DNA from: Adhaeribacter aquaticus DSM 16391
GTDB taxonomy: Bacteria; Bacteroidota; Bacteroidia; Cytophagales; Hymenobacteraceae
DNA length: 64,000 nucleotides
NCBI RefSeq assembly: GCF_000473365.1
Contig: NZ_KI421517.1
Span: forward strand, 1,732,745-1,796,744
Reading direction: 5' to 3'
Notes under the pieces: generated by a model
The model's database searches: none
What the model saw: the letters and a program-made list of their open reading frames with translations, nothing else
What the model was told of the DNA's origin: nothing
Part shown: positions 476-46,237 of the stretch, in pieces
Layout: every line of letters begins with the position of its first letter
Numbering within the stretch: position 1 is the stretch's first letter
Program-made: the position numbers and the translations under genes

Positions 476-988
476 TTATATGGCTTTCGGTTTTTTATAT
501 ATTGGCACTGTACTACATGGTTCGCCATACATGATACTGCTGGCCACGGGTAATAACAGGTGCATTATTTCTACATAGGCATAAGTTGGTACCGGCAAGT
601 TTCCACAACCTTTTATTACCACTTTAGCATCCTGATAATTAGCCGGGTTAATTTTTGCGAAAGCATCCTGGAAAAGCGCCTGTTCTAATGCATCTAAATC
701 TCCGAACACAAATCGGTTAGCGTGTGGCTTCAACTTGGTAGCCAGTAGCATGTAAGCCCAAGTCGGGACTATGGCATCAGCTGAATTTATTATAGCTACA
801 TTTTTACCTGCATAAGCCGACCAATCATTTTCCTTGATAAAATCGCGGAAATTCTTTTCCTTTAAAATTAAACCCATAAAAAGGTTTTCTTTTATATCAT
901 AAATTACGCGCTCACCCGGATGAATTAAATCCTCCAGGTTTATTGTAACCAACGCACTCTGTGCTACTTTATTTATTAATTCAGACAT
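476..988 (-). CDS. DUF2480 family protein
   Basis: 170 residues, the usual length of DUF2480, a cytosolic protein family of unknown function that I know from Bacteroidota. Family-like features are the N-terminal NKVAQSALVTINLEDL segment, the PGERVIYDIKENLFMGLILKEK block and the KNVAIINSADAIVPTWAYMLL block. No signal peptide, membrane segment or catalytic motif is visible. It starts 18 nt downstream of the tsaB stop on the same strand, so the two are probably one transcript, ended by the hairpin just past its stop. The family call is confident; no function can be assigned. Confidence 0.85.
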   Translation of the reverse strand: MSELINKVAQSALVTINLEDLIHPGERVIYDIKENLFMGLILKEKNFRDFIKENDWSAYAGKNVAIINSADAIVPTWAYMLLATKLKPHANRFVFGDLDALEQALFQDAFAKINPANYQDAKVVIKGCGNLPVPTYAYVEIMHLLLPVASSIMYGEPCSTVPIYKKPKAI

Positions 989-1006
989 GTTATTTGCCCT
1001 TTCGGT

Positions 1007-1693
1007 TTAATTCTTTTTTGTTGTTATATAAACCTCTTTCAAATAAAAGGGTTCATAATAGGCTACATCTTCAAAATCTTTTTGCAAAAATTTTAGCCAC
1101 CCTAATCTGCCAATACTTTGTGCTGTTGGCTTTATATTGTCTAAAAACAGCATCTGCTCCTTATTGGTAACTAAATCTTTATATTTTTCTGATCCGCTAC
1201 CTAAAAAAATTATTTTCTTTTCCTGCGAATAATCCTGAAACAACCCTTCCTCCAAAATTACTGGGGCTACGGCCACCTTTTCCTCCAGTGCAGCATTTAC
1301 TAAACAAGTATATACTTCCAAGCGGCGGGCATCAATCATGGGGCAAAAATAATATTCTTCAGCCTTAGGCGTAAAGGCTATTGCCTCAGTAGCCATTGCT
1401 TGCAGCGTAGACACTTGAATTAATGGAATATCTAAAGAAAAACACAAACCTTTAGCCGTAGAACTTCCTATTCTTAAACCTGTATAAGAGCCCGGTCCAC
1501 CAGAAATAGCAATAGCGGATAAATCTTTAATTTCTACCTGGCAATTCTGCAGAAGTTGTTCTATTAGTTTAGTTATATAGGAAGAATGAGACTTTTCTAT
1601 TTGCAGTTCTGACAAACCTAATAGTTGCTCATTTTTGAAAAGGGCTACCGAGCAAATGGTAGAAGACGTTTCAAGGGCTAAAAGGAAAGCCAT
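1007..1693 (-). CDS. tsaB: tRNA threonylcarbamoyladenosine biosynthesis protein TsaB
   Basis: 228 residues. TsaB is the ASKHA-fold partner that supports TsaD in making the t6A modification at position 37 of ANN-decoding tRNAs. The N-terminal MAFLLALETSSTICSVAL and the AISGGPGSYTGLRIG motif are diagnostic. An in-frame TTG at 1723 would add ten residues, but it lies inside a TAnnTTTG promoter box (1721-1728), so the ATG at 1693 is chosen; it is also where homologues usually begin. DUF2480 follows 18 nt downstream. The pairing of the two has no obvious functional reason. Confidence 0.95.
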   Translation of the reverse strand: MAFLLALETSSTICSVALFKNEQLLGLSELQIEKSHSSYITKLIEQLLQNCQVEIKDLSAIAISGGPGSYTGLRIGSSTAKGLCFSLDIPLIQVSTLQAMATEAIAFTPKAEEYYFCPMIDARRLEVYTCLVNAALEEKVAVAPVILEEGLFQDYSQEKKIIFLGSGSEKYKDLVTNKEQMLFLDNIKPTAQSIGRLGWLKFLQKDFEDVAYYEPFYLKEVYITTKKN

Positions 1694-1720
1694 ATTATAT
1701 AAAAGAAGCTTAATAAGCCA

Positions 1721-1728
1721 CAAAGGTA
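1721..1728 (-). promoter_or_regulatory. promoter -7 box for tsaB
   Basis: Minus-strand TACCTTTG matches TAnnTTTG. The expected start point near 1714 leaves a leader of about 20 nt before the tsaB ATG at 1693 and excludes the upstream TTG as the start. The -33 element is not clear. Confidence 0.6.
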
Positions 1729-1750
1729 CGCAGTAAAAGTTTTATTCACT

Positions 1751-1784
1751 AAAAACAAAAAGGCTGGTTTGATTCCAGCCTTTT
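1751..1784 (-). terminator. intrinsic terminator of S41 protease gene
   Basis: A 10-bp perfect stem (1758-1767 with 1775-1784, arm AAAAGGCTGG) with a 7-nt loop and, on the minus strand, a T-rich tail. It lies between the protease stop at 1807 and the tsaB promoter, separating the two transcripts. Confidence 0.85.
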
Positions 1785-1806
1785 CATTATATAAACCTTT
1801 ACATTT

Positions 1807-3471
1807 TTATTTCTTTTTAGAGGCATCCGCTTTTAGGTAAGTGTAAAACTTATCCTGGTTATTAAGAACATTTATAGCTGTTAAAATATTTTGATCATCA
1901 TCAAAAGTTGCCTCAATTAAACCTTTTTGAAAATAGTAACGTGATACTATTTCCTGTTCCAATAATTCCCGGATTTCATCTTTAAACCGGATTAAGTCAT
2001 TTGCTTTATTAGTAGATATTTTCTTCTTAATTACCTCGATATCATTCTTAAGGTCATCAAAATGCTTATCCTCTTTTGATTTCTTTACTAAGTCAGCTAC
2101 TGCCTGTTCTACCCCCGTGGAATATGTTATATCTTTATTGGCTAAGAAACTTACGAATTTCTGGTACTCGGCATCAGATAAATGAAATTCTTTAGGTTTG
2201 GCTATACTAGTATTTTCTGATCTGAACTTGGTAGCATAGTCAAAAAAGTATCCTTTATTTAATAAAGTTTTAGCGATCTGGGAATATTCCCGCTCTTTAA
2301 CCTCTACATCCGGACTAACTCCTCCGCCATCAAAAACCACCCGGCCATTTGCCGTTTTGAATGCAACGCGAAGCGAATCCGGAATTTTACCAAGTGATCC
2401 ATCATCGTTCCGGTGCGAATAATCAATTGCCTGTATACAACGGCCGCTTGGTATATAATACTTGGCAGTAGTAACTTTTAACTGCGAATTGTAAGAAAGC
2501 GGTCGGGTTTCCTGCACTAATCCTTTACCATAAGTGCGTTCACCCACTAATACAGCCCGGTCATAATCCTGCATTACTCCCGAAACAATTTCTGAAGCAG
2601 AGGCACTGGTACTGCTGGTTAAAACTACAATGGGTATATCAGTATCAATAGGATCATCAATAGCTTTATAAACCCGATTGCGTTCTGCTAATTTACCTTT
2701 GGTACTTACAATATCCCGGCCTTTGGGAATAAATAAATTAGATATATTTACTGCCTCATTCAATAACCCGCCAGGATTATCCCGTAAATCAAAAATTATC
2801 TTCTTAGCTCCCTGTTCTTTTAATTTCTGGATGGCATTTTTTACTTCCCGGCTTGCATCCATGGTAAAACCCGATAATTGAAAATAGCCAATATCATTGG
2901 TAACCATTCCATAATAAGGGACATTATCAATCTGAATTTTATCCCGGGTAATTTCGAGCGCTAGCGGTTTATCAAGGCCAAACCGTTTCACTTCCAGCTT
3001 TACAATGGTATTAGCCTGTCCTTTCAGTAATTTATTTACTTCACTCGCGCTTTTTTTCTCAATATTTACACCGTTTATTTTAGTAATCTCGTCGCCTGCT
3101 AATAAACCAGCCTTTTGGGCAGGATATCCTTCATAAGGCAATTGTACAATAGTTTTACCATTACGCTTGCCAATACTTGCCCCTATTCCGCCATACTGAC
3201 CGGTAGTCATGGTTCGAAAATCTTCGATATCATCTTCCGGAATATAATTAGTATAAGGATCTAAAGATTTAAGCATTGCATCAATACCTGATTTCATCAA
3301 CTTAGAAGGGGTAACTTCATCTACATAATAGGTATTAACTTCCTTAAAAACAGTAGCGAAAATGTCTAGGTTTTTGGCAATATCAAAAAAACGGCCATCA
3401 TCAGGGGTAAAGGCAAACAGAAATCCAACGGAGGCAGAAGCTACCAGGCCGGCCAAAGTTTTCTTGAGCAT
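1807..3471 (-). CDS. S41 family C-terminal processing peptidase (CtpA/Prc-like)
   Basis: 554 residues. An exported serine protease that trims or degrades envelope proteins. Order: N-terminal hydrophobic signal or anchor (about 5-22), S41 N-terminal helices (about 30-90), PDZ domain (about 95-175, with GGIGASIG and the carboxylate-binding-loop region), then the protease domain. The Ser-Lys dyad is visible: S291 in SASASE and K316 in ERTYGKG, with the same spacing of 25 as in E. coli Prc. The 170 residues after the core are helical. It lies downstream of rnpA with a 32-nt gap and has its own terminator, so it probably shares the rpmH-rnpA transcript. The substrate is unknown. Confidence 0.93.
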   Translation of the reverse strand: MLKKTLAGLVASASVGFLFAFTPDDGRFFDIAKNLDIFATVFKEVNTYYVDEVTPSKLMKSGIDAMLKSLDPYTNYIPEDDIEDFRTMTTGQYGGIGASIGKRNGKTIVQLPYEGYPAQKAGLLAGDEITKINGVNIEKKSASEVNKLLKGQANTIVKLEVKRFGLDKPLALEITRDKIQIDNVPYYGMVTNDIGYFQLSGFTMDASREVKNAIQKLKEQGAKKIIFDLRDNPGGLLNEAVNISNLFIPKGRDIVSTKGKLAERNRVYKAIDDPIDTDIPIVVLTSSTSASASEIVSGVMQDYDRAVLVGERTYGKGLVQETRPLSYNSQLKVTTAKYYIPSGRCIQAIDYSHRNDDGSLGKIPDSLRVAFKTANGRVVFDGGGVSPDVEVKEREYSQIAKTLLNKGYFFDYATKFRSENTSIAKPKEFHLSDAEYQKFVSFLANKDITYSTGVEQAVADLVKKSKEDKHFDDLKNDIEVIKKKISTNKANDLIRFKDEIRELLEQEIVSRYYFQKGLIEATFDDDQNILTAINVLNNQDKFYTYLKADASKKK

Positions 3472-3503
3472 AATGTTTAGAGTTAAGGAGAAAGGTACTA
3501 CAG

Positions 3504-3908
3504 CTAATTACCTTGCAAACGTTCTAAACCTGAATTTAGTTTTTTTCTGATAATATTGAAAGGATTTTTTTCTTTACCTATATATATGATAGCTAAAGTG
3601 TATATTTTAAAGCTGTTATTAAGGAAAAAGAAGGGTTTTTGGAGGCGGTAAGCTTCCCGCATTTGCCGTTTAATCCGGTTGCGATCTACGGCCTTTTTAA
3701 AATATTTTTTAGAAACTGAAACCAGGATCTGCGGCGGCGTACTTACAGGTTCCGGATTAGTTAGGTACACAAACCGGAGGGGATATAAATTAAAAGAAGA
3801 ACCCTTACTAAAAAGCTCAGTTATTAGCTTCTTACTGTGTAAGCGTTCTTCTTTCGGGAAACTATAGGAAATATTGTCTCTTTCAGGATGGCCAGGTGCA
3901 GCGCTCAT
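3504..3908 (-). CDS. rnpA: ribonuclease P protein component
   Basis: 134 residues. The protein subunit that helps the RNase P RNA cleave tRNA 5' leaders. The family signature RNRIKRQMREAYR is intact, preceded by the LVSVSKKYFKKAVDR segment. The first ATG is used; homologues usually begin close to the YSFPKEERLHSKKLI segment, so the first 15 residues or so are a slightly longer N-terminus than normal, with no other in-frame ATG available. It lies 41 nt downstream of rpmH in the classic rpmH-rnpA order. Confidence 0.95.
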   Translation of the reverse strand: MSAAPGHPERDNISYSFPKEERLHSKKLITELFSKGSSFNLYPLRFVYLTNPEPVSTPPQILVSVSKKYFKKAVDRNRIKRQMREAYRLQKPFFFLNNSFKIYTLAIIYIGKEKNPFNIIRKKLNSGLERLQGN

Positions 3909-3949
3909 TCCATAGTATGCTCTGCTGCTAGCAAAAGCACCTTTAAAGA

Positions 3950-4108
3950 TTAAGCCTTATGTCTTTTCTCGTCAGAAACAGTTAATTTCTTACGACCTTT
4001 GGCTCTTCTGCTTGCGATTACGCGTCTGCCATTAGCTGTTTCCATTCTTGAGCGGAATCCGTGCTTATTTCTTCTTTTTCTCTGAGATGGTTGGAATGTT
4101 CTTTTCAT
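3950..4108 (-). CDS. rpmH: 50S ribosomal protein L34
   Basis: 52 residues, beginning [19 protein letters not shown] and ending VSDEKRHKA, which is unmistakable L34. It is short and highly basic as expected. It is first in the leftward rpmH-rnpA-protease group and has a well-formed promoter (4141-4172) about 33 nt upstream of its ATG. No dnaA or DnaA-box cluster accompanies it here, so the neighbourhood gives no evidence of a replication origin. Confidence 0.97.
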
Positions 4109-44087: not shown

Positions 44088-44615
44088 TTTTTATTTTACA
44101 AGCAAAAGATAGCGTTCATTTAGCTAAGGTTTGAAATGCCTGTACCTTAATAATGGTATAAGGGTTGTTGCTCTAAAAACATTATACTAATTTATACCAG
44201 GAGGCAGTTATAGAAAGACAAAAGTGTAACTTCTAATTTGTAAATCACTATTTATATTTTATTTATTATTTTTAGCTATTTATTTGCATTTTAAAAACGA
44301 ATAAATATATTTACATAAAATTACGCAACAAAACATTCATAAAATTGCGTATTATATAATTAACAAGCGCAACAATTATTATTCTGAACTAATAAAGCTC
44401 TGGTACTTGAAAAAGAATCAAATCTTCGACCGGAAGATTCTAAATAAAGAAATCAAGCCCTTTCCTCCGCGGAAACAAGCTTAAACGTCTTCTCTTAACA
44501 AGAGTGTAGCCAGAGGTTTTAGCGCGTTTCCGCAGAAAGGCACTAATCAAATTGGTGAGTGAGGTCTTATAGGTTTAATAGACCTCATTCACCGAAAATC
44601 TTCAACTACATGCTC
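44088..44615 (+). other. 528-bp intergenic region with structured leader
   Basis: The first 300 bases are AT-rich with no coding signal. From 44421 to 44592 a chain of inverted repeats precedes the NrtD-like gene; see the separate entry. Confidence 0.5.
44421..44592 (+). promoter_or_regulatory. candidate structured RNA leader of unknown class
   Basis: Nested complementarity: hairpin AATCTTC/GAAGATT (44421-44427 with 44433-44439); a long stem made of CCTTT/AAAGG (44459-44463 with 44536-44540), GCGGAAAC/GTTTCCGC (44469-44476 with 44526-44533) and GCTTAAAC/GTTTTAGC (44479-44486 with 44516-44523, one mismatch), capped by CTCTT/AAGAG (44492-44496 with 44500-44504); then CACTAAT/ATTGGTG (44541-44547 with 44551-44557), which competes for bases 44555-44557 with a 13-bp hairpin (44555-44567 with 44580-44592). 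It ends 23 nt before the ATG of the NrtD-like gene. It fits no riboswitch I can recall. A small mobile-element relic is the alternative. Confidence 0.45.
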
Positions 44616-45434
44616 ATGAAAATACTAAGTTACCGCGAGCTAACGGAAATGCCAATTTCCCCGGCTATTGCTAAAGCTGCTTTTCCTAAAACAGAGATCT
44701 TGGATTTCGCCGCCTGGCAAGACGAATTAATAACAGTAATGGGCCAGACCAGTAACTGTAAAAAATTTTATACCCGAATTATTCAGCAGGCTGATTTAAC
44801 TACCGGCGAAAAAGAAGCTTACAAGGTAACTTTAAATAATTTGGATTATAAAGCATTAGAAGGAGCGTTATTAGTTAATTCAGCTACCTTTTACAACCAT
44901 CTATACAGCATAATAAGTGTTTATAATCCATTTTTGCTACAAGAAGAAAAAGTTGCCCTCACAGAAAAATATTTAACTGCTGCCTACTTGCAACCACACA
45001 GCAGTTTTACGCCTAAAAAGGTTTCTGGAACAGTTAGAAAGCAGGCTGTGCTGGCTATTTTATTTGCTATGGCTAATAAGGTGGTAATTCTCCCAAATTT
45101 ATTTGATAAAACTACCGGTACCGAAAAAGAAATTTTACATCGGTCGCTGCAAAACCTACGGCAAGTGCAAACTCAGGCTTCCACTGTTTTTGTGTTAACT
45201 CAGGAACCAGAAGAAGCTATTTATTTAGGAAATCGTATTTTAGTTTTATCCAATCAACCTGCTGGCCTAATTGGTGAAACAGTACCAGTGGCTATTCCTA
45301 AATTAAGAAATCCGTTACTTGTTAAAGAATTCCCTAATTTCAAAACTATTTATAAGAAGCTGCTTGGCTTACTGACAGATACTTTTGCAAATGAAGATTT
45401 GCTATCGTTGCCACCCCAAAAGTTTATATTATAA
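44616..45434 (+). CDS. NrtD/SsuB-like ABC protein lacking ATPase motifs
   Basis: 272 residues from ATG 44616; an in-frame GTG at 44559 lies inside the leader hairpin and is rejected. Aligned by eye to nitrate/sulfonate ABC ATPases it keeps the frame of the whole fold but not the catalytic residues: Walker A position reads GQTSNCKK (43-50, no GKS/T), the signature reads SGTVRKQ (137-143, for SGGxKQR), Walker B reads KVVILPN (155-161, no Asp-Glu), and the H-loop reads LTQEPEEA (Gln for His). The C-terminal VPVAIPKLRNP region matches the NrtD tail. It should not hydrolyse ATP. A regulatory or structural role is inference. cobA follows 77 nt downstream on the same strand. Confidence 0.7.
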   Translation: MKILSYRELTEMPISPAIAKAAFPKTEILDFAAWQDELITVMGQTSNCKKFYTRIIQQADLTTGEKEAYKVTLNNLDYKALEGALLVNSATFYNHLYSIISVYNPFLLQEEKVALTEKYLTAAYLQPHSSFTPKKVSGTVRKQAVLAILFAMANKVVILPNLFDKTTGTEKEILHRSLQNLRQVQTQASTVFVLTQEPEEAIYLGNRILVLSNQPAGLIGETVPVAIPKLRNPLLVKEFPNFKTIYKKLLGLLTDTFANEDLLSLPPQKFIL

Positions 45435-45511
45435 CTCTTAGTAGGAAGGCCATTTTGTGAGGCTGTAATTTTTTTGCCTTATATTGGCAGCTCGAATACC
45501 TTGTTTAAAGA

Positions 45512-46237
45512 ATGAATACCCAATTCCCGAAAGTGACTCTTATTGGTGCTGGCCCAGGCGCCTCCGATTTATTAACCATACGGGGGGCTCAGGTATTAGC
45601 CAAAGCCGATGCCGTTTTATACGATGCTTTGGTAAATAAAGAATTACTAGAGTTGGCACCAGAAAAAGCACCCAAAATTTTTGTTGGTAAACGGTCGGGT
45701 AACCATGAGTATGCACAGGAAGAAATAAATAAAATGATTGTGCAGTATGCTCAAAAGTACGGGCATATTGTTCGTTTAAAAGGCGGAGACCCTTTTGTGT
45801 TTGGGCGGGGCTATGAAGAAATTGCTTATGCTAATTCTTTTGGAGTAGAAACCGAAGTTATTCCGGGAATAACGAGTGCCGTGGCGGTGCCGGGGGCATG
45901 TAATATCCCTTTAACCAGCCGGGGCGTAAGTGAAAGCTTTTGGGTTATTACCGGAGCCACTACAAAAGGTCATATCTCTGAAGACCTGAAATTAGCGGCC
46001 CAGTCTACAGCTACTGTTGTCATACTAATGGGCATGAATAACTTAAAAGAAATTACTGAAATATTTAAAGCCGTAGATAAAATTCAAACACCGGCTGCTG
46101 TTATACAAAATGGCACCCGTACCAACCAGCAAATAGTGCGCGGAACCGTCGAAAATATATACCAACTTACCCAGGAAAAGCAAATAGGTTCCCCCGCCAT
46201 TATCGTTATTGGGAATGTGGTGGATCTGAATTTCTAA
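45512..46237 (+). CDS. cobA: uroporphyrinogen-III C-methyltransferase
   Basis: 241 residues, the length of a single-domain SUMT. SAM-dependent methylation of uroporphyrinogen III to precorrin-2, the branch point for siroheme and cobalamin. Motifs: LIGAGPGASDLLTIRGA, the YDALV segment, RLKGGDPFVFGRGYEE, IPGITSA and the IPLTSRGVS block. It follows the NrtD-like gene, so siroheme for nitrite or sulfite reductase is the likely purpose. A strong terminator follows the stop. Confidence 0.95.
   Translation: MNTQFPKVTLIGAGPGASDLLTIRGAQVLAKADAVLYDALVNKELLELAPEKAPKIFVGKRSGNHEYAQEEINKMIVQYAQKYGHIVRLKGGDPFVFGRGYEEIAYANSFGVETEVIPGITSAVAVPGACNIPLTSRGVSESFWVITGATTKGHISEDLKLAAQSTATVVILMGMNNLKEITEIFKAVDKIQTPAAVIQNGTRTNQQIVRGTVENIYQLTQEKQIGSPAIIVIGNVVDLNF

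Follow-up and report, generated by a model that had tools for sequence, protein, structure and literature searches.

The 64,000-nucleotide window analysed here lies on contig NZ_KI421517.1 of Adhaeribacter aquaticus DSM 16391 (positions 1,732,745 to 1,796,744). It carries at 44616..45434, on the plus strand, a gene for a protein of 272 amino acids that is related to NrtD, the ATPase subunit of the nitrate ATP-binding cassette (ABC) transporter, and that has lost the catalytic motifs of this family. We call it a pseudo-nucleotide-binding domain (pseudo-NBD). It is followed 77 nucleotides downstream on the same strand by cobA, encoding uroporphyrinogen-III C-methyltransferase (45512..46237; TIGR01469, 283.6 bits, cut-off 185), as the first-pass annotation of this stretch had reported, and the gap between the two genes contains no terminator-like site in the window. 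Upstream of the pseudo-NBD lie a hairpin and the gene for a flippase-like protein.

The frame is open from the ATG at 44616 to the stop codon at 45432-45434, confirming the 272 intact codons described earlier. An alternative upstream GTG at 44559 would yield a product of 291 amino acids; the start at 44616 aligns with that of the Adhaeribacter rhizoryzae orthologue. The protein matches TIGR01184 (nitrate ABC ATPase) with an E-value of 8.7e-13 and, among PDB sequences, CmpD (E 6.5e-14) and NrtD (E 1e-12), and it retains the length and the element order of NrtD. Chance resemblance is excluded because of these E-values and the orthologous copies in two other genomes. The pseudo-NBD is therefore, as far as its sequence tells, a distant NrtD homologue, in line with the initial description as NrtD-like. 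Both the window copy (48.4 bits) and the A. rhizoryzae copy (68.4 bits) remain far below the TIGR01184 cut-off of 291.8 bits, which the intact paralogue of A. aquaticus exceeds with 310.5 bits, and the Pfam model ABC_tran matches neither copy.

Alignment with NrtD locates the degenerate motifs, all on the plus strand. The Walker A region (44742..44768) reads GQTSNCKKF instead of GHSGCGKST (SGCGKST to TSNCKKF), the ABC signature (45024..45044) SGTVRKQ instead of SGGMKQR (SGGMKQ to SGTVRK), and Walker B (45081..45098) VVILPN instead of MLLLDE (LLDEP to ILPNL), with both Asp and Glu lost. In the switch region (45198..45206) THD has become TQE, and the identical replacement of His by Gln is found in all three copies of the gene. 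The window copy thus has no Walker A GxxxxGKS/T, no SGG signature, no Walker B Asp-Glu and no switch His. These residues had been read correctly in the first-pass annotation; the alignment adds the losses of the Q-loop (FQN to LEG) and of the D-loop (ALDA to KTTG). All four motifs are intact in 41 of the 41 distinct stretches at NrtD level, that is, with at least 60% identity to A. rhizoryzae NrtD, a cut that excludes pseudo-NBDs and other nucleotide-binding domains (some genomes are counted more than once, and one gene is broken by stops).

Among the eight genomes of the genus (G000 to G007, G000 being the window genome), the pseudo-NBD is present in G000, in A. rhizoryzae DK36 (G005) and in the metagenome-assembled genome Adhaeribacter sp. 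RYN_302 (G006). The G006 orthologue comprises only the 3′ part (128 codons), its contig beginning inside the gene. Identity to the window copy is 33% for G005 and 40% for G006. The G005 copy has lost the P-loop, Q-loop, signature, catalytic Glu and switch His; the G006 copy has lost the catalytic Glu and the switch His, the only two of that set that can be read there. Both retain the Walker B Asp and an SLD D-loop, and the statement that every ATPase motif is erased therefore holds for the window copy and not for its orthologues. The first-pass annotation had asked whether orthologues sit beside nrtABC or nirB and lack the motifs; they are followed by cobA instead, and the catalytic residues are missing from them too. 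The G000 and G005 copies share thirty-two residues, also present in G006 wherever its sequence can be read, that occur in none of nine aligned NrtDs. Therefore the switch had already been lost in the common ancestor. In the helical subdomain 14 of 30 residues are identical between the two far copies.

Nonsynonymous differences per site (pN) are well below synonymous differences per site (pS) in three of three pairs of copies; synonymous sites are saturated, so that pN/pS can only be assigned as well below one. Between G005 and G006 (128 codons) the pseudo-NBD has a pN of 0.124 and a pS of 0.769, and its pN is 1.5 times that of cobA (0.081). Between G000 and G005 the values are 0.462 and 0.783, the pN being 3.2 times that of cobA (0.144); NrtD has a pN of 0.083 in this pair. 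The pseudo-NBD is under purifying selection, which is the answer to the dN/dS comparison of orthologues proposed earlier. When random substitution was simulated, 7 of 20000 frames remained open with 20% of bases changed and none of 20000 with 40%. A pseudogene still short of collapse is improbable. By TIGR01184 score, erosion has gone further in the window copy than in its orthologue, the pN ratio to cobA rises as given above, and placement within the NrtD tree was unsuccessful, the terminal branch having 8.84 changes per column. These signs are opposed by a frame intact in the copies read (128 codons in G006), by pN well below pS, by the shared derived residues and by the conserved helical subdomain; stops, frameshifts or a pN near pS were not found. 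Recent decay was set back as the leading explanation by the low pN. Together with the orthologues lacking catalytic residues and the NrtD/CmpD-like models described below, purifying selection supports the earlier judgement that this is no simple decay and that a pseudo-ATPase with a kept role is encoded.

The superposition suggested in the first-pass annotation also agrees with this judgement. Predicted models of the window and G005 copies superpose best on NrtD/CmpD (Z about 20 or more), a match that is not fully independent, as the input alignments of the predictor included NrtD rows. A full ABC nucleotide-binding fold combines a RecA-like core, a helical subdomain and an N-terminal beta subdomain. 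From about residue 90 to 250 the ten-residue mean of the predicted local distance difference test (pLDDT) is 70-96. It falls below 50 in the N-terminal beta part (residues 1-26 and 61-80 of the window copy; 1-27 and 59-80 in G005) and in residues 256-272 of the window copy.

An intact NrtD is encoded beside NrtA and NrtB at a separate place in both G000 and G005. The G000 protein has whole motifs and lies within a nitrate cluster in which NrtB, NarK, NirD and NirB reach NCBIfam cut-offs, a kinase and a porin carry Pfam domains, and the names NrtA, NasA and response regulator rest on domain, position or inspection by eye (NrtA has an NMT1_2 match; NasA does not reach the cut-offs of its best-scoring models). 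The stretch of this cluster that was read showed no cobA, and the single cobA found in the G000 genome search is the one behind the pseudo-NBD. When promoter words of the nitrate cluster were compared with those of the pseudo-NBD, just a single A+T-rich 8-mer, with its complement, attained the threshold of presence in 8 of 17 stretches. Three side observations concern nitrate genes. In the genome of L078 the nitrate reductase (583-4104) has 1174 amino acids, its NasA-like part preceding a reductase half that resembles NirB, with a TIGR02374 match at 710-1171 below its cut-off. In the NrtD tree the G005 protein groups with that of G128, from another genus, and not with G000 (support 97/96); to judge from this grouping, nrtABD may have been transferred between genera. 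In G289, in-frame stops divide the NrtD frame (L083, 9295-9723 and 9775-10152) next to nrtA- and nrtB-like frames that look whole, which is either a recent loss or an assembly error.

The genus tree (2393 columns) has two groups, (G000,(G001,G005,G006)) and ((G002,G004),(G003,G007)); support is good for four of its five inner branches, and G001, G005 and G006 are left in no fixed order. nrtB is present in G000 and G005, nirB in seven of the eight genomes (it is missing from G006, which is 78% complete) and cobA in all eight. The pseudo-NBD agrees with nrtB/nrtD in seven of seven near-complete genomes, both being present in two and absent from five, and all seven have cobA and nirB. In G001, a close relative of G005, nrtABD has been lost, the rest of the nitrate cluster is retained, and the pseudo-NBD is missing as well. 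The nrtABD site, which in G005 is flanked by a porin gene and a PfkB-like gene (identified by eye), measures about 170 nucleotides in G001. A search for pseudo-NBD remnants in the cobA, flippase and nitrate-cluster stretches of G001-G004 and G007 produced five short hits, the best at E 1.2, which we attribute to chance. Weak matches in these same five genomes (E 1.7e-4 for G004 in one search, 3.7e-5 to 6.4e-4 at best in another) look like other ABC ATPases; the only one that was read, from G004 (L006), has intact motifs and is not NrtD-like.

Within the genus, the pseudo-NBD tracks the ABC nitrate transporter and not siroheme or nitrite reduction, a pattern that is no more than suggestive. The link to nitrate drawn in the first-pass annotation is thus supported for NrtABD, by co-occurrence over few contrasts, rather than for siroheme and nirB. 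It is accordingly rather unlikely that the protein is a soluble regulator or chaperone of the siroheme/nitrite-reductase branch, acting with CobA and detached from the transporter. Its position in G000, G005 and G006, immediately 5′ of cobA and co-directional with it, the lack of a terminator-like site before cobA in the window and the erosion of the permease-facing stretch would fit such a role. Five near-complete relatives, however, have cobA and nirB without the pseudo-NBD, among them G001, which also lacks nrtABD, and a partner in siroheme synthesis or NirB was set back as the leading explanation by these genomes.

The flippase-like membrane protein (PF03706; 43083..44087, minus strand) is encoded in three of the eight genus genomes, in a lineage-specific stretch between a GFO/IDH/MocA gene and cobA. 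It flanks the pseudo-NBD and is at most a candidate functional partner. Between the two genes lies a single-copy imperfect palindrome of about 96 nucleotides (44455..44550, no strand assigned), recognised by genome matches within the genus and by RNA folding. Its ends, AAGCCCTTTCCT and GAAAGGCACNAATCAA, are conserved and its length is about 96-100 nucleotides. G000, G005 and G001 have one match each, always at this locus, and the other five genomes none. The three copies (window 44455-44550; L079 9763-9860; L108 4822-4921) have RNA fold z-scores of -3.9, -7.6 and -6.9. Inspected by eye, the inner stem has a different sequence and register in G000 than in G005, and both versions still pair; because of the different registers, covariation was not formally counted. 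Against Rfam the window stretch had no hit up to E 5, and the surroundings of the orthologue had five (E 0.66 to 3.9), all well short of their gathering scores. In G001 the hairpin remains on the flippase side without the pseudo-NBD, and the G006 contig ends short of it; the hairpin may not be part of the pseudo-NBD unit. An unrelated function, for example membrane or nucleic-acid related, shared with flippase and hairpin and linked to nrtABD by chance, would explain why all three elements sit together and are missing from G002, G003, G004 and G007, in which the GFO/IDH/MocA gene adjoins cobA. With flippase and hairpin present in G001 in the absence of the pseudo-NBD, we consider this quite improbable.

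The explanation that we favour, tentatively and at somewhat less than even chances, is that the pseudo-NBD is an NrtD-derived pseudo-subunit that acts on NrtABD as a modulator, probably a restraining one, either through pairing with NrtD or through docking on NrtB. An nrtD copy would have lost ATP hydrolysis before A. aquaticus and A. rhizoryzae separated and would have been kept since as a folded pseudo-NBD. Its retained helical subdomain, core and NrtD-type C-terminal tail might be used for pairing with NrtD or docking on NrtB. In a mixed dimer in which one domain has lost P-loop and signature, neither composite ATP site would be complete. Inhibition is therefore the simplest effect, and the lack of a complete ATP sandwich would lower or gate nitrate import by NrtA-NrtB-NrtD. 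This brake would be active when the pseudo-NBD is made together with cobA, and co-expression might, as a guess, couple it to siroheme supply. The contact with NrtABD, the inhibitory direction and the co-transcription with cobA are what we infer. The bolder version, in which a dead importer ATPase has become a free-standing decoy subunit that throttles the importer and so matches nitrate uptake to siroheme supply via a shared pseudo-ATPase-cobA transcript, an ABC counterpart of pseudokinases, is unlikely, at about one chance in a few.

The first-pass annotation had offered a nitrate-responsive regulator or the dead half of a heterodimer, and either may apply; a dead half that permits transport is less likely, as both composite sites would be incomplete. 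Known transporters with one degenerate ATP site retain one working site. A structural half of a working mixed importer with NrtD would agree with the NrtD-like predicted fold and tail, and tandem ATPase genes with one degenerate partner do occur elsewhere in Bacteroidota. It has little probability in view of the lost P-loop and signature, and no such partner was found in the other NrtD genomes searched. The tandem genes are NrtD/SsuB-like (L065, L073, L072, L074, L075); in the degenerate partner either the switch His is replaced by Asn, or the Walker B Glu by Gly and the His by Ser. To judge from their sequences, they possibly encode asymmetric importer dimers.

Several observations weigh against a modulator of NrtABD. 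nrtABD lies about 0.53 Mb from the pseudo-NBD on the same contig, and the pseudo-NBD adjoins cobA and not nrtA or nrtB. The co-occurrence amounts to only about two independent contrasts, G005 against G001 and the G000 clade against that of G002, G003, G004 and G007. cobA and flippase are inside two different contigs of G001, and the loss there may be a by-product of a rearrangement separating the two genes. Measured against cobA, the window copy changes more quickly than the copies of G005 and G006, and the constraint on it looks weaker. In the Q-loop/coupling stretch, which contacts the permease, the two far copies agree at 5 of 20 positions; this poor conservation makes pairing with NrtD, or with some other protein, likelier than docking on NrtB. 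A weak sigma-70-like match precedes cobA (45484-45513), no more than chance in that region, and cobA therefore need not share the pseudo-NBD transcript. In an order-wide search the profile matched at E <= 1e-25 in 42 of 390 genomes, with only the window copy at pseudo-NBD level (491.9 bits; best other match 144.4); nine of the 42 are without a motif reading (G607, G620, G656, G679, G687, G703, G737, G801, G845). G126 and G128 showed intact NrtD only. Most NrtD-bearing genomes seem to do without a pseudo-NBD, and none further was found among the loci read, which were made from best matches only in samples of 200 family, 395 phylum and 390 order genomes.

Altogether, the closest known system by sequence and structure match is the NrtD/CmpD subunit of nitrate and bicarbonate ABC importers (TIGR01184; PDB 8w9m, 9u9z), which the pseudo-NBD resembles in length, element order, predicted fold and C-terminal tail. 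Unlike NrtD/CmpD, it has no motifs for nucleotide binding and hydrolysis, stays below the family cut-off and is not encoded beside nrtA/nrtB. In known ABC systems, a pseudo-ATPase forms one half of an asymmetric dimer. The degenerate-site domains of heterodimeric ABC transporters have likewise lost catalytic residues beside an active paralogue; in these, part of one site is lost and the domain is encoded in the operon or chain of the transporter itself, whereas the window pseudo-NBD has no live motif left and is encoded on its own in front of cobA. Degenerate nucleotide-binding domains are well known (PMC7756269). A free-standing dead NrtD paralogue is not described among the literature matches listed, a scope mostly outside subscription papers. 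If the favoured reading is true, a separate, fully inactive paralogue, kept by selection and present or lost together with the transporter, would be a new post-translational control of an importer, and A. rhizoryzae with both pseudo-NBD and nrtABD against its near kin G001 with neither offers a natural contrast among soil bacteria. Restraint at the ATPase subunits is also found in cyanobacteria: in Synechocystis, nitrate uptake is inhibited through PII, which interacts with NrtC as well as NrtD (PMC6603209), and NrtC has a regulatory domain. PII is an unrelated protein, whereas the candidate modulator in Adhaeribacter would derive from the ATPase itself, as a dead copy.
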